Shown in pieces: positions 1,174 to 48,201 of a stretch of DNA of 64,000 nt. The stretch covers positions 496,001 through 560,000 of the forward strand of contig NZ_LRML01000001.1 in assembly GCF_001647285.1 (NCBI RefSeq), read 5' to 3'. Origin of the DNA: Rufibacter roseus. GTDB taxonomy: Bacteria; Bacteroidota; Bacteroidia; Cytophagales; Hymenobacteraceae. Within the stretch, counting starts at the first letter, position 1; the number at the start of each line of letters is the position of its first letter. The notes beneath the pieces were generated by a model that saw only the letters and a program-made list of their open reading frames with translations, was not told the DNA's origin and did not search any database. A program made the translations under genes and the position numbers.

Positions 1174-4100
1174 CTAGCGCATTATGGTTATTGACTTCTT
1201 AAGCAGGGGTTGGGCGTTCCCCAGATCAATGGTGCAGTAGTAGGTGCCATTTGGCAACGGCTGGCCATTGTAAGTTCCGTCCCATGGTTTCCTATATCCC
1301 TTCGATTCAAACACTGGGCTTCCCCAGCGGTTGTACACTGTGATTTTGCAGTTAGGGTATAGGGTGGAGATATTCTTGATTTCCCACAGGTCATTCAAAC
1401 CATCACCGTTTGGAGAGAAACCGGTAGGGATTTCAAAGTCTTGGCTGGCTTCAATAGTGAAGTTGACCTCAGTAGTACAACCGTTTTTGTCTTTCACCAC
1501 TAGCAGGTGGGTACCTTCACTCAGGTTGTGAAAGACAGAGTCAGTGGTAAATCTTCCCTTGTCTAGCTGGTAGGTGTAAGGAGCGGTACCGCCGCCAACA
1601 AAAGTAACCGCAGCGCTGCCTGTTGAGCTGGCGGCAACGGTATTAGATAAGGCGGTTACTTTTACTTGAATAGGCTTAGGCTCTTTGATCTCTACTGTGC
1701 CAAGGTTAACTGTACACTCTGGAGAGAATCTGACAAGAACCTGATAACTGCCGCCTGCCAAGTTTGTAAACACAGAATCTTTCAGGAAAGTACGGCCGTT
1801 GTCAATGCTGAATTCTGCTTTGCCTTCTCCGCCTTTGGTAGTTACTGAAATGGAACCATTGGCCTGACCTGAGCAGAGTGCATCCTGCACTAAAGCTATT
1901 TTGCTTTCTACTTTCTTGATCAGAACCGAGGTGGAGTAGGTGCAGTTATTGGCGTCTTTCACCGTTAGTTGGTAGGTGCCAGGTGCCAACCCAGTAAGGG
2001 TAGCTGAAGCAGAGAAACGAGTGCCGTCTGTGGAGTACGTGTAAGGAGCAGTGCCGCCAGTTACTTCTTTCACAACTACCTGGCCGGTGGTCTGGCTGCA
2101 GCCTGCTGCCTGGGTAGTGAAGATTACTCCCGTGATGGCGGAGCTGTTGCCAAGGTTAATTTCCTTTGTCTTCACACAACCCGCGGCATCTTTTACAGTT
2201 ACCACATGCTTGCCTGAGGCCAACCTAGTGAACTCTGGGTTAGTCTGGAAGTTACTGCCATCAATACTGAAGGTGTAAGGACTTCGGCCGCCGCTTATCT
2301 GACTAACTATGATAGTGCCATTGTTAGTCCCGCAAGTGGCGTCTGTGTTGGTCAAGGTGAAGCTTTCCGCTCCCCCGCTGCCTTTCACTTCATGGCTTTG
2401 GGTGAAGGTACAACCTGCTGCATCTTTGATGGTGATGGTATAGTTGCCAGTACCTAAGTTGCTAAATACCGCAGCAGATTGGAAGCTAATTCCGTTGATG
2501 CTGTAGGCAAGTGGAAGTGTACCACCCGTTACAGATTCTACGTTGATAGATCCGTTGTTCTGGGCGCAGTTAGCTGAAACAGAAGAAAGTGTTGCCTTCG
2601 TTATTTTGTTTTCTGTTACAGTTACACTAGAGGTAAACACACAGCCATTCGCATCTTTCACGAACACCTGATAGGCCTGCGGCGAAAGAACTGTGAAGGT
2701 GCTGGAGGTTTGGTAGCTGACTCCATCAAGAGAATAAGCATAAGGCGCCTTGCCGCCGGTAGTGGAAGTTACTTTGAAAGATCCTTTCTCAGAGCAAGTA
2801 GCCGGTGTGGTTGAAGTGGTAATAGCGGTGACACCTGCCAAGTTGGAAACAGACACTTCCTTGGTGATGGTACATCCGCTGGCGTCTTTCACGGTAAGGG
2901 TATGAAGTCCCTCCGCTACCTCATTAAATGTGGTTTGGCTTTGGAAAGCTGCTCCGTTAAGTGAGTAAATGAAGGGTGCTGTGCCACCACTTATTTCTCC
3001 AATACTGATGCTGCCATTGCGGTTGCCACAGGTGGAGGCAGTAGTGGTGTAAGCGAAATCAGTTGGTCCGCTAATACTTTCTACTTCAATGGATTTAGAG
3101 TAAGTGCAGCCGTTGGAATCCTTCACTACAATGGTATAGGAGCCGGCTGTCAGCGCCGTGAAGGTGCCGGTTTCTTGGAAATTAACGCCGTCTTTGCTGT
3201 AGGTATAAGGTGCTACGCCCGCGACCACATTGGTTACAGTAATTTGCCCGTTGGCCTGTCCGCAGGAGGAGGACAGTTGAGTTAGCGTAATATCTGTTGG
3301 CCCTTCAGTACCTGATATAGTGACTTCAGTTGAGTATGTGCAGCCATTGGCATCTTTCACGGTAATGGCGTATGCGCCTGCTGTAAGGCCACTATAGAAA
3401 GCACTTGATTGGAAGTTGACCCCGTCTTTGCTGTAGGTGTAAGGGGCTGTGCCGCCAATAACCGCTGTTACCGTTACCGTTCCGTTGCTGTTGTTGCAGG
3501 TAGTACCAGTAACCGCCGCGGCCACGCTTTCTATGCCCTTCAAATCTTTTACCTGCACCTGGTCTGCAAACTCACATCCTTTGGCATCTAGCACGGTCAC
3601 TTTGTAAGTGCCTGCAGAAAGATTGTCAAAAGAGGCTGAAGAGGTGAATGTAGATCCGTCTATTGAATATTTATAAGGGGCGGTGCCTCCATTGATGGTG
3701 GTTATACTAATGCTGCCGTTGCCATTGCCACAGGTAGAAGGTGCTACGGAGGTGGTGAAAGCAGACGGAGCCGTTTTAGCGACAGTAGCTACTTCCGTGG
3801 TTAAACACCCGTTTGCGTCTTGAACAGTTACACTGTAGGTGCCAGAAGCAAGACCTGTAAAGGAAGCGCTACTCTGGAAAGAAAGACCATCAAGAGAATA
3901 GGCATAAGGGGCAGAGCCTCCGCTTACCTCTTTCACTGTAATGGCACCATCTCTGTCAGAACAGCTGGCAGGAGTGGTGTCTACTGTTGCCGCAGTAGGT
4001 CCGGCCAAGTCTTGCAGAAGCATCTCTTTAGAGAAGGTGCATCCGTTGCCGTCTTTCACTGATAAAGTGTGTGTGCCAGCTTGTAAGGCGGGAAAGGAAG

Positions 4101-7100
4101 TAGAGTGTTGGAAGGGTCCTCCGTTAATGCTGTAGGTGTAAGGAGCAACGCCTCCGGTTACTAATTCTACCGTTAAACTTCCGTTGTTCCCCCCGCAAGT
4201 AGAAGGTTGGGTGCTGACGGTAATACCAGTAGGTCCAGTGACATCAGTTACAGTTACGGTTTCTGCATAAGTGCAACCATTGGCATCGCGCACGGTCACC
4301 ACATGTTTTCCGGCAGTTACCGCGGTAAAGGTGGTTTCGTCCTTGAACTCTTTACCGTCTAAAGAGAAGGTAAATGGTGCTGTTCCGCCCTTCACTGTAG
4401 TTACCATTACGGTGCCGTTGTTGCTTCCGCAGGTAGCAGTAGTGCTCGCCAGTTCTAAACCAGCAGGGCTCGCAATGTCATTTACTGAAGCCTGTTTGGA
4501 AAAGGTGCAGCCGTTGGCATCTTTAACCGTGATGGTGTAGGTGCCTGCAGTTAAGGCAGTAAATACAATAGCATCCTGAAAGACAGAACCGTTAATGCTG
4601 TACGTGTACGGAGCAGTGCCTCCTGTTACAGTAGCTACCTGAAGCTGTCCATTAGCAGATCCGCACGTGCTTGCTTGTGCAGAGACAATAAAGTCAGTAG
4701 GGCCAGCCTTGTCTTCTATTACCACCACCTCAGTTGACATGCAGCCAGTGGAGTCTTTTACGGTAATAGAATACGTTGCCGCAGTGAGTGCCGTGAACGT
4801 AGCAGAAGTTTGAAAGTGAACGCCGTCTATGCTGAATGAATAAGGAGCAGTGCCGCCTCTTGTTTCAGCGATTGTTATTTTGCCGTTGCTGTTTCCGCAG
4901 GTGCTTGGTACTACCGTTGCGGTGAAAGCTGGTCCGGCAACATTGTTGACAGCAACTGCCTTTGAATAGGTGCAGCCATTCGCATCTTTCACTGTGATGA
5001 TATGCGAGCCTGCGCTCAGATTCTGAAAAGTAGCAGAAGCTTGGAAGCGCTGTCCATCTTGGCTATAAGTATATGGTCCAGTTCCTCCAGTAACCGAAAG
5101 AATGGTGATTGTTCCGTCACTGTTTCCGCACCTTGTTTCGGTGGTGGAAACAGTAAATGCCGTTGGTGCATTTTGCCCAACTCTTACCCCCGATGCAAAC
5201 TGACAACCATTGGCATCTTTCACCGTGACGGTGTACAAGCCTGCTGCCAATCCTGAGAACGAACCGCTCTCCTGATAAGTGGAGCCATTGATAGAGTAGG
5301 TAAAAGGAGCAGTTCCGCCGGTTACATTGCTTACCGTAATACTGCCGTCGCTGTTGGTGCAGTTAGCAGGTTGGGCAGCAGTTGTCATTGTGGTTGGTCC
5401 GGCAATGTTTGAAACTTCTGCTTTCTGCGTGTAGGTGCAACCGTTGGCGTCTTTCACATAAACTTGGTAGGTATTGGCTGCAAGTGCCGTGAAAGTGACA
5501 GATGTCTGAAAGTTTACGCCATCTATGCTATAGGTGTATGGTGCTGTGCCGCCGTTCACTCCGTTTACAGTGATGCCGCCATTGGCACCGCCGCAGGTAG
5601 AAGGAGAGCTTGTAAGAGTTAAGGCAGCAGGTCCAGTCACATATTCCACTTCTGCTGTTTGGCTAAAGGTACAGCCATTGGCATCTTTCACGGTAAGGGT
5701 GTAGGTGTTGGCAGCCAAAGCTGAGAAAGAAGCAGATGATTGGAACTGGACACCATCTACACTATAGCTGAACGGAGCGGTTCCTCCCGTTACTTCTCTT
5801 ACTTCAAGCTGTCCGTTGGTGCCGCAGATGGCAGGTTTAGACGCTATTCTAACTTCAGTTGGACCGGCAATGTCTTCCAGTAACACCTGCTTCACAAAAG
5901 AACATCCGTTAGCGTCTTTCACGGTTACAGTAAAAGTGCCTGAACGTAACCCAGTAAATGTGGAAGAATTTTGAAAGACAGTTCCGTTGAGGGAGTAGGT
6001 GAAAGGAACCGTGCCGCCGTCAACGTTGCGAATGGAAATACTGCCGTTGCTATTGCCACAGGTTGACGCCTGTACTGAAGAGGTGAAATCTTGTGGGCCA
6101 GGGGTGTTGGTAATCTGAATTTGGCCAGCAAAAGTACAGCCATTGGCATCTTTTACTGTGATAGTGTAAGTGCTCGCTACCAAGCCAGTAAGAGTGGCAG
6201 AAGATTGGAAGTTTTTACCATCAAGGCTATACGAATAAGGGCTCGTGCCACCAGTTATATTTAGAATGGTAATACTTCCATTGCTATTGCCGCAAGTAGA
6301 GGCTACCGTTGTAGCGTCAAAAGCAGTAGGAATGTTCTTAGAAACTTTAACAGAGGCGGTGACGAGGCATCCGTTGGTGTCTTTAGCAGTTACTGTGTAC
6401 GTGCCACTTGAAAGTGCTGTAAAGCGGTTGTATTCCTGAAAAGTAACTCCATCCAGAGAATAAACAAAAGGAGCAGTGCCTCCTGTTACAGTATCAACGA
6501 TAATGCTGCCGTCATTGTCAGCACAGGTGGCCGGAGAAGAACTGGCTGTTACTGCTGCCGGACCATTGATGTTGTTGATGACAAATGACTTGTTAAAGGT
6601 ACATCCGTTCGCATCTTTCACAAACAAGGTATGGGTGCCTGCAGCTAAAGCGGTAAAAGTAGGAGAGGGTTGGAAGTTCACTCCGTCTCTGCTGTAGCTA
6701 TAAGGGGCAGTTCCACCTGTTATTTTGGTTAGGGTAAGGGCACCGTTGCTGTTTCCGCAGATAGAAGCGCTTATTTCAGCGGTCAGGTCAGTAGGTCCGG
6801 CTACGTTGGTAACGGTAGCTTTTTTAGTGAAGACACAACCGTTTGCGTCTTTCACAGTGACAGTATGTTCTCCGGCCGTAATAGGGGCAAAGGCAGTACT
6901 GCTTTGGAAAGAGCCACCATTTAGTGCAAATGAATAAGGAGCTACTCCACCGGTTACTCCTCTTACGGTGATGGTGCCGTTGCTGGCGCCGCAGGTAGAA
7001 GCTGCCGTTGCCAACGCCAGATCAGTTGGCCCGTAAATATTTTCTAGTTGCACTTCTTTGTTGAAAGTACAGCCGTTGGCGTCTTTGACGGTGATGGTGT

Positions 7101-10100
7101 GGTTGCCTGCGGGTAAAGATGTAAAGGCTGCAGAGTTTTGGAAAGCAGCGCCGTTTATGCTGTAAGTGTATGGGCTAGTGCCTCCCGCTACTGAGCTGAT
7201 GTTAATGCTGCCATTGCTACTGCCGCAGGTAGAGGAAGATACTGCCAACGTTAGATCAGAAGGTCCGGCAATGTCTTTTACCTCTATTTCCTCTGATGAT
7301 AAGCAGCCTTTGGTATCTTTTACCATGATCAGGTACACACCCGCGCCCACTGTCATGAATGTGGCAGATGATTGGAAATTAGTACCGTCTATGCTATAGA
7401 GATAAGGAGCGGTGCCTCCTGTTACTCCTTTTACTGTAATGGCTCCATTGGTATTGCCGCAGGTGCTGGCAGTAGCTGTAACCGTAAACGCAGGCCCAGC
7501 AGTGTTGCTCACCGATACGCCTTTGCTGTAAGTGCAGCCCTTCGCATCCCGAACACTGATGGTGTGTGTGCCAGCTAATAAACCAGTAAATGTAGAGTTG
7601 CTTTGGAAGACACCGCCATCAATGCTGTACTGATAGGGAGCGGTGCCACCGGTAACAGTTCCAACAGTGATGGTTCCATCATTGCGCCCGCAAGAAGTTT
7701 CAGTGGTGGAGAACGTAAAGGCAGTTGGCACATTTTGCCCTACCGTTACTTGTGTAGAAACAAGGCATCCATTGGCATCTTTGGCGGTGATGGTGTATGT
7801 GCCTGAAGATATACCTGCATAAATGATTTCTGTCTGAAAGTTTGTATTGCCTATGGAGTAGGTGTAAGGAGCAGTGCCGCCTGTCACGCCGGAGATTGAA
7901 ATACTTCCGTCGTTATTTAAACAGCTGGCAGAACTAGAAACTGCTGTGATAGCTGATGGGCCTGGAACATCTCGTACGGCAACCTGCTGAGCAAATGTGC
8001 AGGCATTGGCATCTTTAACATAAATGGTATAGGTGCCAGCAGCCAGTTCAGTAAAGGTGGCGGAAGCTTGGAAATTTACCCCGTCTTTACTGTAGCTGTA
8101 AGGCGCTGTGCCACCCGTAACGCTATTCACGCTCAAGGCACCGTTGCTTCTTCCGCAAGAGGAGGAAACAGTGGTGGAAGCCAGTGCGGTTGGGCCAGAC
8201 AGGTTTTCTACTCTTACTTTCTTTGTAAAGGAACAGCCATTCGCATCTTTTACTGTAACAGTGTGCTCTCCTGCCGGAACTCCCGTATAGGTGGCATTCG
8301 TTTGGAATTCTTGTCCGTTGAGCGAGTAGGTGTAGGGTGCCATTCCTCCGCTTACCCCTTCCACTTTGATAGACCCGTTGCTGGCACCGCAGGTGGAAGC
8401 TTGGTTTGACATAGCAATGTCACGTGGCCCAGCCTGATCTGTTACCTCAATGGTTTTCGAAAAGAGGCAGCCATTGGCATCTTTCACCAAGATAGAATAT
8501 GTGCCGGCGATGAGGTTCTCAAAGGTGGCTGAAGCCTGAAACTGAACTCCGTCTTTGCTATAGGTAAAGGGAGCAGTTCCGCCATTGACAGATTCAATCA
8601 TCACCCTGCCGTTACTGGCGCCGCAAGTTGAGGCAACGACAGTGGATTCTACACCTTGAGGGCCTGCCACATCTTCAATAACAACTAATTTTGTATATGT
8701 GCAACCGTTGGCGTCTTTAATTGCCACTGTGTGCTGGCCTGCCTGTAACTGATTGAATGTAGCGGAAGTTTGATAGTTCGTTCCGTCAAGGCTATAGGTA
8801 TAAGGAGAAGTTCCGCCTGTTACCTCTGTTACTGTTAGCGCTGCATTGCTGTAACCACAGGTAGAAGAGCTGGTGGAAACATTTGCCTCAGTAGGGCCAG
8901 CTACATTGTTTAAAACTACTGATTTAGTAAACGTACAGCCTTTTGCATCTTTCACCGTGATGGTGTAGGTGCCGGCGGCTAGACTGCTGAAAGTGCTGGA
9001 GGCTTGAAAATTTATGCCGTCTTGGCTGTAGTAATAAGGAGCCGTGCCTCCGGTAACTGAAACAACAGTAAAAGTGCCATTGTTGCGGCCACAGGTAGAT
9101 GCTACTGTAGAAGTGGTAAAGCCGGTAGGTACGTTCTTTTTAACAACAACAGCCGTGGTAACTAAACAACCGTTGGCATCTTTTGCAGTAACGGTGTAGT
9201 TGCCGGAAGCAAGGACTGTAAAAGCGGTTCCGGTTTGGAAAGCAGTACCATCTATGGAATAGGAATAAGGAGCAGAGCCACCCGTTACTCCTGTCACTTT
9301 TATTTCCCCGTCATTGTTCAGGCAGCTGGCAGATGCAGTAGAGGCCGTTACTGCTGTTGGGCCAGCTATGTCAGATAACCTTACTTCTTTGGCATAAACA
9401 CAACCGTTGGCGTCTTTCACAGTGAACATGTAAGATCCTGCTTTTAGGGAAGTGAAAGTGGCAGAAGCCTGAAAGTGGATGCCATCTTTGCTGTAACTAA
9501 AAGGAGCTGTCCCGCCAGAAACATTACCGATGTTAATGGAGCCATTGTTGCCGCCGCAGGTTGATGGAGTGAGGCTGGCGGTAAAACCCGATGGCCCTGC
9601 CACGTCCCTAACAGAAACCTGGCGGGTAATGGTACAGCCGTTCGCATCTTTTACGGTGACAGTATAAGTGCCCGCAGACAGACCTGCTAAAGTAGCCGAT
9701 GCCTGAAAAGTAGTGCCATTGGTGCTGTAGGAGTAAGGGGCTGTGCCACCTATTACAGACGTGACGGTAACGCTTCCATTACTGGAGCCACAGGTAGATG
9801 AAGCGGCTGTTAAACTTATCTCAGTAGGGCCTGCAATGTTCTCCAGTAAAACTGTTTTAACAAAAGTACACCCATTGGCGTCCTTGATAGTTAGTAAATG
9901 TTGCCCAGCGGATAACCCGGAAAAAGAAGCAGAGCTTTGAAAGGCAGCTCCGTTTAGACTGTAGGTATATGGTGCCGTTCCGCCAGTGACGCTAGCTACT
10001 GCTATAGTTCCGTTTTTGGTTCCGCAAGTAGTGGCTTTAGTAGTGAGGGCAGCGTCTGAAGGGCCAGCAATATTGTTAACTGTAAAAGCCTTGGAGAAAC

Positions 10101-12429
10101 TACAGCCGTTGGTGTCTCTGACAGTAATAGAATAAGTGCCTGCTGCTAAAGCCTGGAAAGAGGAAGCTGTCTGGAATGCTCCTCCGTTCAAACTATAGGT
10201 ATAGGGCGCAGTACCACCAGTAGCGGCAATGCTTAGCGTTCCGTTGCTGTTTCCGCAAGTAGAAGACGTAATGGAGGCAGTGAGGTCAGAAGGACCAGCT
10301 ATGTTACCAATGACTATGGAGCGGGAGGTGATACAACCGTTCGCATCTTTCACTGTGATCGTATAAGTGCCGGCGGCAAGCGCTGTGAAAGTGCCCGTCT
10401 CCTGAAAAGAAACGCCGTCCTTACTGTAGGTGAAAGGTGCAGTTCCGCCTGTCACTGAGGTGACGGTGATGCCGCCATTGCTAGCGCCACAGGTGCTGGA
10501 AGAAGTGTTGAAAGCGAAGGTAGTGGGACCTGGTGCACTGCCCACCACTACTGTTTTGGTGAAGAGGCAGCCGTTCGCATCTTTCACTGTAATAGTATAA
10601 GACCCAGAGGCTACTCCGGAAAAAGTATTAGTGCTTTGGAAAGTTACGCCGTCTTTGCTGTAAGTAAAGGGTGCCTGGCCATTTATAACGTTAGAAACAG
10701 TAATGCTTCCGTTGCTGTTGCCGCAAGTAGTACTGGTGGTGGAAGTGGTAAAACCGGTAGGGCCCGAAATATTTTGTAAAATATACGTGTTGCTGTACAC
10801 GCAGCCATTGGCGTCTTTCACGCTGATGGAGTAGGTGCCAGCAGAAAGAGCGGTATAACTAGTGGCACTTTTGAATTCTGAGCCATTCAAGCTGTACAAA
10901 TAAGGAGCTCGTCCTCCGGTAACACCATTTATTTGCAGTGAACCATTGCTGTTACCACAGGTAGAAGGGGTGGAGGTGATTGTAACAGCTGATGGGCCTG
11001 CTTCCTCGCTTACTGTAAATGATTTCTGAATTGAGCATCCTTTCGCATCGGTAGCGGTCACTGTATAAGTGCCGGCAGCTTTGTTTGAAACAGTAGCAGT
11101 GGTTTCGCCGGTGTTCCATTGATAGGTGATAGGCGCCTGCCCTCCTGTAGTTGCAGCTGTGATGGTGGCCGTAGAGCCTGCGCAAATAACTGCTGGGCCT
11201 GTGAAGGTAAGGTTAAATTGGTAAAAGGAAATCAGTACTTCATCTGAAATAGGGGAGCAGGTGCCGTTGACAGTGGTTGTGAGGGTAAGTTTTACCTTGC
11301 CTGCCGCCAATTCACTGGCAGTAGGGGTGTAGGTGGCGTTCAATGAAGTGTTATTTGGGGAGAAAGAACCTGCACCCCCACTCCAGATGCCGCCAGTGGC
11401 AGCCGTAACAGAACCTGTTAACGACACTGGGCTTGTGGTACAAATTAATTGGTCTGGACCTGCATTCACTGACAAATCTGTGACAACCGTAACAGAAGCC
11501 TCAAACTTTTTACAGTTAGGGTAGTTTTCAGTTCTAACTTCGAGAAAATATTCACCTACCGTAGGAGCTATATAGTTTTTTGTAGTGGCCAATAGCTGCC
11601 CACTTTTATTTGTCCAGAAGTAGCTGAAGTTTCCGCTGCCGCCAGTAACATTTCCGGTTAACTCAACGCCTGTTGAGCCGGGGCAAATAATGGCAGGGGT
11701 GGGGCTGATAGAAACTATTGGGGCAGGGAAAAAGTAAACCCGCACCGTGTCACAAAAAGGGAGATCTGAGCAGGGTGAAGCTACTGAACTACCGCACACC
11801 ACGTAGTCAACAAACGCAGGAGCGTTGTCGTCTGGGGTTATGGTTGGGGTAGCGCAACCTGAGGTGCAACTCAAATACTTGTTGTAGGCACCGCCGCCTG
11901 TTATATCTGTCCAGGTGATGGATGCTTCTTCAAACGCTATGGGAGCCTGTAAAACAGAAGAACATCCACCTGAAATTTTTACGTCTGGGACAGGAGTAAA
12001 AGCGGCAATGGACTTTACCTGAAAGCTATTACTGGCACCGCCAGGCATGCAAATGGTGAGCACATGGGGGCCAACACCAGATACGCAGATGGGTTGCCCT
12101 ACTGGTACGGGTGGTCCGCAATCTATCTGATAGGCCATGGCGCCGGAAGGTACTGGTCCGCCCGTAATGCTGAACTCCAGCCCTCCCGCATTTTTGTCAA
12201 GGGTTATGTTGAACTGAATGCAGTTTTCGTTGCCTTTAGCGCCACAAATGCTGCCATTGCGGCTTAGATCTCCTGAATTCCAGATGCCATTGGGTTGACC
12301 TGTAAGGTTAACTTCATGTACCGGTACACTGTTCCCTTGCGCATGCAATTGCAATGGAGCCATATAAAGCATCCAAAGTAGGAGGAGAGGAAATGCGTAA
12401 GTTATTTTTTGAGTAAAGGTTCTTTCCAT
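1174..12429 (-). CDS. Giant SprB-repeat cell-surface adhesin with gliding-motility-type C-terminal domain
   Basis: This is a secreted protein of about 3,750 residues. A signal peptide (MERTFTQKITYAF, hydrophobic run, LQLHAQ) supports the ATG at 12,427-12,429 rather than one 63 bp upstream. Residues to about 470 hold non-repeated and PKD-like modules, including a segment beginning VNAGPDQLICTTSPVSLTG. From about residue 475 to 3,600 lie about 40 SprB repeats of 75-78 residues, each with STCGNSNG, VTGGTAPYTYS, DG..FQ and GTYTITVKDANGC. The last 85 or so residues (IPTGFSPNGDGLNDLWEI ... NRWG ... PWDG ... NGTYYC) are the gliding-motility-associated C-terminal domain, the type B signal of type IX secretion. 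The paired cysteines of each repeat suggest intra-repeat disulfides. A surface adhesion or gliding role is inferred from SprB. The porP/sprF-like gene follows 30 bp downstream. Confidence 0.95.
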   Translation of the reverse strand: MERTFTQKITYAFPLLLLWMLYMAPLQLHAQGNSVPVHEVNLTGQPNGIWNSGDLSRNGSICGAKGNENCIQFNITLDKNAGGLEFSITGGPVPSGAMAYQIDCGPPVPVGQPICVSGVGPHVLTICMPGGASNSFQVKSIAAFTPVPDVKISGGCSSVLQAPIAFEEASITWTDITGGGAYNKYLSCTSGCATPTITPDDNAPAFVDYVVCGSSVASPCSDLPFCDTVRVYFFPAPIVSISPTPAIICPGSTGVELTGNVTGGSGNFSYFWTNKSGQLLATTKNYIAPTVGEYFLEVRTENYPNCKKFEASVTVVTDLSVNAGPDQLICTTSPVSLTGSVTAATGGIWSGGAGSFSPNNTSLNATYTPTASELAAGKVKLTLTTTVNGTCSPISDEVLISFYQFNLTFTGPAVICAGSTATITAATTGGQAPITYQWNTGETTATVSNKAAGTYTVTATDAKGCSIQKSFTVSEEAGPSAVTITSTPSTCGNSNGSLQINGVTGGRAPYLYSLNGSEFKSATSYTALSAGTYSISVKDANGCVYSNTYILQNISGPTGFTTSTTSTTCGNSNGSITVSNVINGQAPFTYSKDGVTFQSTNTFSGVASGSYTITVKDANGCLFTKTVVVGSAPGPTTFAFNTSSSTCGASNGGITVTSVTGGTAPFTYSKDGVSFQETGTFTALAAGTYTITVKDANGCITSRSIVIGNIAGPSDLTASITSSTCGNSNGTLSIAATGGTAPYTYSLNGGAFQTASSFQALAAGTYSITVRDTNGCSFSKAFTVNNIAGPSDAALTTKATTCGTKNGTIAVASVTGGTAPYTYSLNGAAFQSSASFSGLSAGQHLLTIKDANGCTFVKTVLLENIAGPTEISLTAASSTCGSSNGSVTVTSVIGGTAPYSYSTNGTTFQASATLAGLSAGTYTVTVKDANGCTITRQVSVRDVAGPSGFTASLTPSTCGGNNGSINIGNVSGGTAPFSYSKDGIHFQASATFTSLKAGSYMFTVKDANGCVYAKEVRLSDIAGPTAVTASTASASCLNNDGEIKVTGVTGGSAPYSYSIDGTAFQTGTAFTVLASGNYTVTAKDANGCLVTTAVVVKKNVPTGFTTSTVASTCGRNNGTFTVVSVTGGTAPYYYSQDGINFQASSTFSSLAAGTYTITVKDAKGCTFTKSVVLNNVAGPTEANVSTSSSTCGYSNAALTVTEVTGGTSPYTYSLDGTNYQTSATFNQLQAGQHTVAIKDANGCTYTKLVVIEDVAGPQGVESTVVASTCGASNGRVMIESVNGGTAPFTYSKDGVQFQASATFENLIAGTYSILVKDANGCLFSKTIEVTDQAGPRDIAMSNQASTCGASNGSIKVEGVSGGMAPYTYSLNGQEFQTNATYTGVPAGEHTVTVKDANGCSFTKKVRVENLSGPTALASTTVSSSCGRSNGALSVNSVTGGTAPYSYSKDGVNFQASATFTELAAGTYTIYVKDANACTFAQQVAVRDVPGPSAITAVSSSASCLNNDGSISISGVTGGTAPYTYSIGNTNFQTEIIYAGISSGTYTITAKDANGCLVSTQVTVGQNVPTAFTFSTTETSCGRNDGTITVGTVTGGTAPYQYSIDGGVFQSNSTFTGLLAGTHTISVRDAKGCTYSKGVSVSNTAGPAFTVTATASTCGNTNGAITVKGVTGGTAPYLYSIDGTNFQSSATFMTVGAGVYLIMVKDTKGCLSSEEIEVKDIAGPSDLTLAVSSSTCGSSNGSINISSVAGGTSPYTYSINGAAFQNSAAFTSLPAGNHTITVKDANGCTFNKEVQLENIYGPTDLALATAASTCGASNGTITVRGVTGGVAPYSFALNGGSFQSSTAFAPITAGEHTVTVKDANGCVFTKKATVTNVAGPTDLTAEISASICGNSNGALTLTKITGGTAPYSYSRDGVNFQPSPTFTALAAGTHTLFVKDANGCTFNKSFVINNINGPAAVTASSSPATCADNDGSIIVDTVTGGTAPFVYSLDGVTFQEYNRFTALSSGTYTVTAKDTNGCLVTASVKVSKNIPTAFDATTVASTCGNSNGSITILNITGGTSPYSYSLDGKNFQSSATLTGLVASTYTITVKDANGCTFAGQIQITNTPGPQDFTSSVQASTCGNSNGSISIRNVDGGTVPFTYSLNGTVFQNSSTFTGLRSGTFTVTVKDANGCSFVKQVLLEDIAGPTEVRIASKPAICGTNGQLEVREVTGGTAPFSYSVDGVQFQSSASFSALAANTYTLTVKDANGCTFSQTAEVEYVTGPAALTLTSSPSTCGGANGGITVNGVNGGTAPYTYSIDGVNFQTSVTFTALAANTYQVYVKDANGCTYTQKAEVSNIAGPTTMTTAAQPANCTNSDGSITVSNVTGGTAPFTYSINGSTYQESGSFSGLAAGLYTVTVKDANGCQFASGVRVGQNAPTAFTVSTTETRCGNSDGTITILSVTGGTGPYTYSQDGQRFQASATFQNLSAGSHIITVKDANGCTYSKAVAVNNVAGPAFTATVVPSTCGNSNGKITIAETRGGTAPYSFSIDGVHFQTSATFTALTAATYSITVKDSTGCMSTEVVVIEDKAGPTDFIVSAQASTCGSANGQLQVATVTGGTAPYTYSINGSVFQDAIVFTALTAGTYTITVKDANGCTFSKQASVNDIASPAGLELASTTATCGSNNGTVMVTTVKGGTAPFTFSLDGKEFKDETTFTAVTAGKHVVTVRDANGCTYAETVTVTDVTGPTGITVSTQPSTCGGNNGSLTVELVTGGVAPYTYSINGGPFQHSTSFPALQAGTHTLSVKDGNGCTFSKEMLLQDLAGPTAATVDTTPASCSDRDGAITVKEVSGGSAPYAYSLDGLSFQSSASFTGLASGTYSVTVQDANGCLTTEVATVAKTAPSAFTTSVAPSTCGNGNGSISITTINGGTAPYKYSIDGSTFTSSASFDNLSAGTYKVTVLDAKGCEFADQVQVKDLKGIESVAAAVTGTTCNNSNGTVTVTAVIGGTAPYTYSKDGVNFQSSAFYSGLTAGAYAITVKDANGCTYSTEVTISGTEGPTDITLTQLSSSCGQANGQITVTNVVAGVAPYTYSKDGVNFQETGTFTALTAGSYTIVVKDSNGCTYSKSIEVESISGPTDFAYTTTASTCGNRNGSISIGEISGGTAPFIYSLNGAAFQSQTTFNEVAEGLHTLTVKDASGCTITKEVSVSNLAGVTAITTSTTPATCSEKGSFKVTSTTGGKAPYAYSLDGVSYQTSSTFTVLSPQAYQVFVKDANGCVFTSSVTVTENKITKATLSSVSANCAQNNGSINVESVTGGTLPLAYSINGISFQSAAVFSNLGTGNYTITIKDAAGCTFTQSHEVKGSGGAESFTLTNTDATCGTNNGTIIVSQISGGRSPYTFSIDGSNFQTNPEFTRLASGKHVVTVKDAAGCVKTKEINLGNSSAITGVIFTTQAAGCSQTTGQVVVKEVTGGTAPYTYSTDGTRFSASATLTGLAPGTYQLTVKDANNCTYSTSVLIKKVESKIALVQDALCSGQANGSISVTTKGGEGKAEFSIDNGRTFLKDSVFTNLAGGSYQVLVRFSPECTVNLGTVEIKEPKPIQVKVTALSNTVAASSTGSAAVTFVGGGTAPYTYQLDKGRFTTDSVFHNLSEGTHLLVVKDKNGCTTEVNFTIEASQDFEIPTGFSPNGDGLNDLWEIKNISTLYPNCKITVYNRWGSPVFESKGYRKPWDGTYNGQPLPNGTYYCTIDLGNAQPLLKKSITIMR
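1640..11005 (-). repeat. Array of about 40 in-frame SprB repeats (about 233 bp each)
   Basis: I count 39-41 tandem units by eye. Most begin GP(T/S) and contain a TCG.(S/N)NG motif and a DANGC motif. Variant units with the motif ASCLNNDG or a relative (ATCADNDG, ANCTNSDG, ASCSDRDG) fall at units 8, 14, 20, 25 and 31, near nt 9,325, 7,925, 6,525, 5,360 and 3,965. Each is followed by a unit beginning PT(A/G)F or PSAF. This 5-6-unit spacing shows that the array grew by copying blocks of units, not only single units. Confidence 0.9.
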
Positions 12430-12492
12430 ATGCGAAGAGTTTTTGATCCTGTTCAAATCTGTAATGAGGTGCGCTGAAAGATTACCATTCAA

Positions 12493-17207: not shown

Positions 17208-17242
17208 AATTAGGAATTGAGAATTAGGAATTAATAATTCAA
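17208..17242. repeat. H7 heptad repeat array (5 units)
   Basis: Five consecutive 7-mers, AATTAGG, AATTGAG, AATTAGG, AATTAAT and AATTCAA, start 3 bp after the metG stop. This is one of about ten heptad arrays in the window. Confidence 0.8.
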
Positions 17243-23706: not shown

Positions 23707-23714
23707 CAAATTTA
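23707..23714 (-). promoter_or_regulatory. Candidate -7 box of pth
   Basis: The minus-strand reading TAAATTTG fits TANNTTTG and ends 4 nt before the ATG at 23,702. If used, the transcript would start almost at that codon. No clear -33 box is seen. Confidence 0.4.
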
Positions 23715-23806
23715 GTGATTAGTGATTAGTGATTAATGTTTAGTAAAGGCAAGTGGATTTTTTCAATCTAAACACTAACAACTAAACACCATCAACTAAT
23801 CACTAC
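23714..23806. repeat. H7 heptad repeat, two inverted arms
   Basis: The left arm is three perfect copies of AGTGATT (23,714-23,734). The right arm is six degenerate heptads (AATCTAA, ACACTAA, CAACTAA, ACACCAT, CAACTAA, TCACTAC; 23,765-23,806) that are roughly its reverse complement. The arms fill the gap between pth and the trans-sulfuration gene and could fold into one long hairpin. Confidence 0.8.
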
Positions 23807-23810
23807 CAAC

Positions 23811-42828: not shown

Positions 42829-42839
42829 AAGAGATCAGT

Positions 42840-42874
42840 CAATGAACAATCAGCAATAGACAATCAGCAATCAA
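42840..42874. repeat. H7 heptad repeat array (5 units)
   Basis: CAATGAA, CAATCAG, CAATAGA, CAATCAG and CAATCAA lie directly beyond the stop of the lptF/G-type gene (stop at 42,878). CAATCAG also occurs in the array at 54,246. Confidence 0.85.
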
Positions 42875-42877
42875 CCA

Positions 42878-43961: not shown

Positions 43962-44067
43962 AATTATGAATTAAAAATTAGAAATTAGAAATGACTTCTG
44001 ATTTCTAAGACAACTGAAAAAGGAGCATCCCCAATTTCTAATTCATAATTTCTAATTTCTAATTAAA
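43962..44067. repeat. H7 heptad repeat, two inverted arms between tgt and the lpt gene
   Basis: The left arm is AATTATG, AATTAAA, AATTAGA, AATTAGA, AATGACT (43,962-43,996). The right arm is AATTTCT, AATTCAT, AATTTCT, AATTTCT, AATTAAA (44,033-44,067). The right arm is close to the reverse complement of the left. Its last unit contains the tgt stop codon (44,063-44,065). Confidence 0.88.
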
Positions 44068-48145: not shown

Positions 48146-48166
48146 ACCTCCTGCACTTACTTCAAA

Positions 48167-48201
48167 ACTCAAGACTCAGAACTCGAGACTCAGGACTCTT
48201 T
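48167..48201. repeat. H7 heptad repeat array (5 units)
   Basis: ACTCAAG, ACTCAGA, ACTCGAG, ACTCAGG and ACTCTTT lie just upstream of rsmG. The same heptad type (ACTCAAG/ACTCAGA) occurs between atpD and atpC. Confidence 0.85.

Follow-up and report, generated by a model that had tools for sequence, protein, structure and literature searches.

A six-domain super-repeat in the SprB-type array of a giant adhesin from Rufibacter roseus and its relatives

The locus and its array

The stretch of Rufibacter roseus DNA analysed here (64,000 nucleotides, hereafter the window) carries a giant gene with a long tandem array of SprB-type repeats. Is such an array organised above the level of the single repeat and, if so, how is this order maintained? 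An initial annotation had proposed two alternating blocks, copied in at least two readable duplication steps. The analysis reported below leads to a simpler building block: the array is probably the stalk of an adhesin that is exported by the type IX secretion system (T9SS) and anchored by an SprF-like protein, and which is built from groups of six Ig-like SprB domains maintained in register.

The adhesin ORF extends from 1174 to 12492 on the minus strand, on which the other features of this locus also lie, and amounts to 3772 residues when listed from its TTG; translation probably starts at the ATG at 12429, where a sequence resembling a signal peptide begins. The N-terminal region (11221–12429) lies mostly outside the array. 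The array itself (1900–10995) comprises 39 canonical SprB-type units of 77–78 residues each, from u01 (10762–10995) to u39 (1900–2136). The SprB profile PF13573 scores 737.5 bits on this ORF, with 39 matches at E ≤ 0.001, of which 31 stretches are over the curated cut-off. A type B T9SS sorting domain (1210–1434) forms the C-terminus, recognised both by TIGR04131 (64.3 bits, cut-off 35) and by CHU_C (84.5 bits, cut-off 27). Directly downstream lies the gene of an outer membrane protein of the PorP/SprF family (133–1143; TIGR03519, 273 bits), which probably carries and anchors the adhesin. SprA, the T9SS translocon, is present in the genome (TIGR04189, 2432 bits). By its sequence features, the adhesin belongs to the SprB-repeat proteins and to the type B substrates of the T9SS, its carrier gene adjoining. 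The same genome holds a second ORF of 698 residues with two SprB repeats (L001, G000:C36:292319-292648).

Independent cutting of the array into 39 units reproduced the unit numbering, the coordinates and the marker units of the initial annotation. A CxNNDG-like variant is indeed found at u08 (9130–9360, class c), u14 (7729–7959), u20 (6331–6561), u25 (5167–5397) and u31 (3769–3999), thus with spacings of 6, 6, 5 and 6. It recurs in weaker form at u36 (2605–2832), a degenerate sixth marker unit (PATCSEKG...TENK) which is scored as tail class h. The five full markers, designated phase 0, open super-repeats 1 (u08–u13, 7960–9360), 2 (u14–u19, 6562–7959), 3 (u20–u24, 5398–6561) and 4 (u25–u30, 4000–5397), and block 5 (u31–u35, 2833–3999). 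Six units correspond to 1.40 kb of array DNA. Super-repeat 3 has five units in the window versus six in the same-genus relative Rufibacter glacialis (G015); block 5 has five units in both.

The units that follow the markers start, in order, with PTGF, PTAF, PTAF, PTAF and PSAF, just as had been listed. GPAFT opens u16 (7264–7497) and u27 (4702–4935), both of class e and third in super-repeats 2 and 4, respectively. The match reported earlier between u14–17 and u25–28 is retained, since this pair ranks 5th among the 528 four-unit block pairs. The fourth units of these blocks start as described, with PSDL in u17 and PTDF in u28, but a PTD start is not specific to u28, being shared by u18 and u19. 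Units 8, 20 and 31 do not hold together as one group: the pair of blocks at 8 and 20 ranks 10th, but 8–31 comes only 109th and 20–31 192nd of 528.

Periodicity in the window and age of the blocks

The period was tested by comparing all unit pairs and permuting the unit order, over 24 lags. At the protein level, identity peaks at lag 6 (z +4.1, p<0.001), followed by lag 5 (+2.3) and lag 11 (+2.2); at the DNA level, lag 11 comes first (z +4.0), before lag 17 (+2.8) and lag 6 (+2.2). The maximum over the 24 lags gives p=0.002 for protein and DNA alike. Banding at 5–6 and 11–12 units, as anticipated in the initial annotation, is thus present in the form of raised lags 5, 6 and 11. Neighbouring units are not the closest ones, the similarity at lag 1 being below average. 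A higher-order repeat does exist, with a block of about 1.4 kb, of which the longer spacing of 2.6–2.8 kb proposed before is a harmonic. The lag-6 signal persists when the marker units are left out (p=0.003) or when the linker columns are removed (p=0.001), which excludes a period carried by the marker unit alone or by the linker alone. The phase signal per unit is modest: unit identity averages 47% in the window, with 0.50 for lag-6 pairs versus 0.47 overall. Tandem Repeats Finder detected nothing in the array, its copies being too diverged or the period too long.

Synonymous positions look very different. Synonymous codon identity between window units averages 0.40, without any lag-6 excess (z -0.1), and neither synonymous nor fourfold sites showed a period after correction for the many lags tested. 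The closest pair of units has 65% DNA identity, and no exact repeat of at least 45 bp occurs in the adhesin gene of the window. Because synonymous sites are saturated and lack a lag-6 signal, the blocks are not recent duplications. For the same reason of saturation, a unit tree was not used as evidence and the lag permutation was relied on instead. The copying which formed the blocks is thus ancient relative to synonymous change, and the phase-specific residues have outlasted the signal of the synonymous sites.

The six-unit period in related genomes

The N-terminal region (11221–12429), used as a query, identified orthologs with 45–75% identity in 36 further genomes of this family, among them genomes of Rufibacter, Pontibacter and Adhaeribacter. 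Their genes were cut into units by profile and the lag test was repeated on 37 arrays, window included. The lag-6 z is positive in all 37, with a mean of 7.0, as compared with 3.4 for lag 12 and 0.2 for lag 1; these orthologs are not independent, and several of the statistics given here draw on the same arrays. In 30 of the 37 arrays lag 6 scores highest, and in six the period spans 11 units (5+6).

A mixture model with eight classes, blind to unit order, was fitted to about 1550 units. One of its classes corresponds to the marker units, and members of this class are six units apart in 132 of 188 gaps, as against a mean of 13.6 and a maximum of 28 after shuffling. When the blocks are aligned on the marker class, six phases emerge, each with conserved residues of its own. 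Phase 0 has D17, conserved in 132/132 copies, together with N16, S12 and V4, and by a shortened end, the last model columns being absent in 132/132 units. Those of other phases include F4 and K63 in phase 1, L6 in phase 4, and F71, E19 and T23 in phase 5. When the phase 1–5 units of Rufibacter were assigned from Pontibacter and Adhaeribacter units alone, 74% were placed correctly (null mean 20%, maximum 33%), which means that the phases are homologous across genera. The six-phase super-repeat is ancestral to Rufibacter, Pontibacter and Adhaeribacter. As the pattern predates their split, and synonymous sites are saturated, the two duplication steps that the array was said to record are not countable in the window sequence.

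Departures from six are seen as spacings of 3, 4, 5 and 9 units, as the 11-unit period of one lineage and as gains and losses of single units. In the N-terminal third of the L099 and L105 arrays, a three-unit period is found, with the marker class at every third unit (lag-3 z of 6.2 and 6.8) and exact repeats of 46–58 bp at lag 3, as if this part of the array had been amplified in steps of half a super-repeat. Outside the family, the more distant N-terminal homologs L121 and L122 have units which are different and non-canonical by eye.

That SprB domains should everywhere be constrained to a period of six was also considered, and it is excluded by 19 distant SprB arrays, whose top lags range from 1 to 5 and are never 6. 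The period of six belongs to this adhesin lineage and not to the SprB domain. Four distant Bacteroidota (L126, L128, L135 and L142) have SprB-type arrays with a four-unit period, with z values of up to 9.5, which shows that super-repeats of different length occur in other lineages.

Array sizes, copying and upkeep of the register

Array size was taken as the unit count delimited by constant landmarks at the N- and C-terminal ends (29 for L087, which has a split tail domain). Core arrays contain 12 to 60 units, and these sizes are quantised, with clusters at 12, 24, 30, 36, 42, 48 and 60; 21 of the 37 arrays are exact multiples of six. Sister pairs were picked by hand from the N-terminal tree; of their 12 non-zero size differences, 6 can be divided exactly by six (p=0.008), and 11 fall within one of a multiple of six (p=0.003). 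Many clean gaps of 6, 12, 18 or 24 units are also visible in unit-level alignments.

Copying that cannot be seen in the window is visible in its relatives. Unit pairs with at least 80% DNA identity and exact repeats of at least 45 bp occur there at lags 3, 5, 6, 9, 11, 12, 15, 21 and 22, and hardly elsewhere; long copies at lag 1 are absent from these arrays. The highly similar tracts usually span one to three units. Such patches look like the products of gene conversion, and the size steps like those of unequal crossing-over. In six-period arrays, exact repeats of at least 45 bp are distributed as 16 at lags that are multiples of six, 14 at other multiples of three and 1 elsewhere. The longest exact repeat among the relatives, of 606 bp, is found in the single-contig genome of L083, where it links units 8–10 to units 20–22, exactly 12 units (2796 bp) apart. 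The remaining unit pairs at lag 12 in this array are below 80% DNA identity, and the 606 bp repeat looks like a recent in-phase gene conversion.

Short exact matches in six-period arrays behave otherwise, since 61% of those of 20–24 bp and 52% of those of 25–29 bp are out of phase, versus 1 of the 31 long repeats. This contrast favours the removal of out-of-phase products; a single event may leave several repeats, which are then not independent of each other, and pairing through long homology could contribute to it.

The following scenario is proposed. Six Ig-like SprB domains (phases 0–5, about 1.4 kb) make up the super-repeat, which arose before the three genera separated. Its register would be kept in two ways: in-phase products of recombination would be retained and out-of-phase ones lost, and each phase has conserved residues of its own, most strongly phase 0, with its NDG loop and its shorter linker to the next domain. 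This would explain why arrays change in length mostly by whole super-repeats. In the window, the blocks are old and saturated, and one unit has presumably been dropped from block 3. The protein lag-6 signal of the window, devoid of a synonymous counterpart, counts in favour of this explanation. Selection on the register is likely, either through the geometry of the stalk or through a contact made once per super-repeat, and the adhesin would work as an extended adhesive stalk. A more specific version, put forward tentatively, would make the super-repeat itself a selected module: in every sixth domain, phase 0 with its shorter linker would provide a fixed kink or rotation, or else a site for a ligand or an ion, and changes in length would work only if they preserve the register. 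If this is true, the stalk should show a regular axial period of roughly 20–25 nm, assuming a domain length of 3.5–4 nm, and would represent a bacterial counterpart of the ruler-like super-repeats of titin.

Much of the pattern could be obtained from in-phase recombination alone, if long homology sets the pairing. The array would in that case be a purely mutational higher-order repeat of the satellite type, with blocks amplified once and then subjected to in-phase crossing-over or gene conversion, and no selection on the register. In alpha-satellite higher-order repeats, a multi-unit block is the unit of growth and is copied in register, and the adhesin array is alike in both respects; it differs in being protein-coding, in having its register visible in amino acids and in having copies with at most 65% DNA identity in the window. 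The long exact in-phase tracts of the relatives, up to the 606 bp found at 12 units in L083, are what such a process would leave, as are the gene-conversion-like patches of one to three units at lags 6, 11, 12, 21 and 22. The periods of 1–5 in other SprB arrays are also those predicted by historical accident. Yet phase-specific protein features persist in the window in spite of saturated synonymous sites and with no such copying in evidence, and the phases are recognisable across genera. Matches of 20–29 bp, the likely seeds of recombination, are mostly out of phase, but the long products are not, and long copies at lag 1 are missing. Taken with these observations, recombination without selection appears rather unlikely, and the account in which recombination products are sorted according to phase is preferred.

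Five- and eleven-unit spacings

The initial annotation had interpreted the window as two alternating blocks, of five and six units, forming a composite of 11–12 units whose duplication could be read as two steps. Several features invite this interpretation, namely the 6, 6, 5, 6 spacing of the markers, the strong lag 11 at the DNA level and the confinement of GPAFT to blocks 2 and 4. The unit-by-unit alignment with R. glacialis leads elsewhere, since both arrays are collinear save for a single gap at the u22/u23 junction (5862–5863), where the window lacks a unit that R. glacialis (L039) has and that the six-unit register calls for. R. glacialis thus has six units where the window has five. 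With a blank restored at this position, lag 6 reaches a z of 4.4 and lag 12 a z of 3.6, and lag 11 vanishes (z 0.1). The window's 11 is therefore 2 x 6 minus 1, its composite being two six-unit blocks less one lost unit. Since six dominates the other arrays, this unit was presumably lost in the window rather than gained in R. glacialis. Alternating blocks are not needed despite the GPAFT pattern, because lag 12 does not exceed lag 6 once the register is restored. In addition, the DNA bears no trace of recent copying. The two-block account of the window is thus largely refuted and looks very improbable, even with a 5+6=11 period being real elsewhere: an 11-unit period, with alternating 5- and 6-unit blocks, is observed in six Pontibacter/Adhaeribacter arrays (L044, L085, L046, L087, L045 and L084), so that the arrangement once proposed for the window truly occurs in other species.

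Chance or convergence, by which NDG loops and short linkers would be regular through mere coincidence, could draw on the modest per-unit signal in the window and on the few pairs that 39 units provide, but its probability is negligible in view of the p-value of 0.002 that the window gives across all lags, of the positive lag-6 z in 37/37 arrays and of 132 six-unit spacings versus 13.6 expected, the period having been looked for in the orthologs and present there, which refutes coincidence.

Predicted structure and nearest solved relative

For u14–u20, AlphaFold2 run with 48 aligned super-repeats predicts seven domains rich in beta-strands, with a mean pLDDT of 92.8; at a pTM of 0.54, the domain angles and any six-domain superhelix are not reliable from this model. 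The only solved sequence relative is the grappling hook protein A (GhpA) of Aureispira sp. CCB-QB1 (PDB 9flp and others), found by profile search with an E-value of 1e-26 and also ranked first by Foldseek and VIA-align (Z 8.5–10.9). Unlike the profile search, phmmer with a four-unit stretch gave no match in the PDB. GhpA resembles the adhesin in forming strings of the same kind of domain, but identity is only 13–19% over the structural alignment.

Is it a gliding SprB?

The name SprB given in the initial annotation is appropriate for the repeat family (PF13573); the implied role as a gliding adhesin is not borne out by the neighbouring gene. The Flavobacterium johnsoniae SprB/SprF pair (PMC9143113, PMC12635249) shares with the adhesin a giant protein with a type B C-terminal domain, SprB-type repeats and an adjacent gene of the PorP/SprF family. 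In the gliding machinery, the Cys-X-Cys C-tail of SprF, joined to GldK, couples SprB to the track, and this motif of the periplasmic C-tail is invariant among close SprF homologs (PMC12635249). In contrast, the SprF-like neighbour of the adhesin lacks a Cys-X-Cys C-tail, in the window as in the complete relatives checked: there is no cysteine in the C-tail of the window protein, and none in the last 25 residues of any of the 34 complete downstream proteins of the relatives. The SprF-like carriers of this adhesin family (window, L039–L105) end at the barrel. Matches to GldJ in the genome are below the curated cut-off, and GldB is over it. As far as these sequences tell, it is doubtful that the adhesin is an SprB in the gliding sense. 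Carriers devoid of the Cys-X-Cys tail may be the sign of a class of SprB-repeat adhesins that do not serve gliding, and giant proteins with PF13573 repeats should not all be called gliding SprB.

Parallels and significance

The nearest parallel in terms of mechanism is provided by the A-band super-repeats of titin (PMC10665226). There also, a giant filament consists of Ig-like domains, those that occupy the same place in the super-repeat are alike, a shortened linker is specific to one position and growth involves whole super-repeats. Residues conserved by position and a distinct linker at one position, as a titin-like organisation would have, are both found in the adhesin, in its phase-specific consensus and in the shortened end of phase 0. 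The differences are that the adhesin is bacterial, consists of a single domain family throughout, has a period of six and is not known to share sequence homology with titin; moreover, titin has the thick filament as a periodic partner, for which the adhesin has no known equivalent.

The periscope proteins SasG, Rib and Sgo_0707 (PMC8201768) are likewise bacterial surface stalks, in which folded domains follow one another in tandem and in numbers that differ from one relative to another. Their adjacent repeats are highly similar, in contrast to those of the adhesin, where the lag-1 z is about 0 and identity is 47%, and the length of the adhesin varies mostly by six. No higher-order repeat in SprB or in bacterial adhesins was found in the open-licence literature, although this says little about whether one has been described.

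A giant Bacteroidota adhesin can thus be organised above the level of the single domain, in a manner that several genera share and that array sizes reveal. For structural work, six domains form a natural unit of expression, and assemblers and annotators gain a check on array length. Nature also provides here a case in which to ask if the register of super-repeats is kept by recombination alone or by selection.

Tandem repetition on a much smaller scale is seen elsewhere in the window. Short tandem arrays of 7- or 14-base units, mostly intergenic, lie at 17208–17239, 23712–23746, 23768–23810, 42834–42875, 44033–44064 and 48162–48198, those at 23.7 kb having TTAGTGA-like units.
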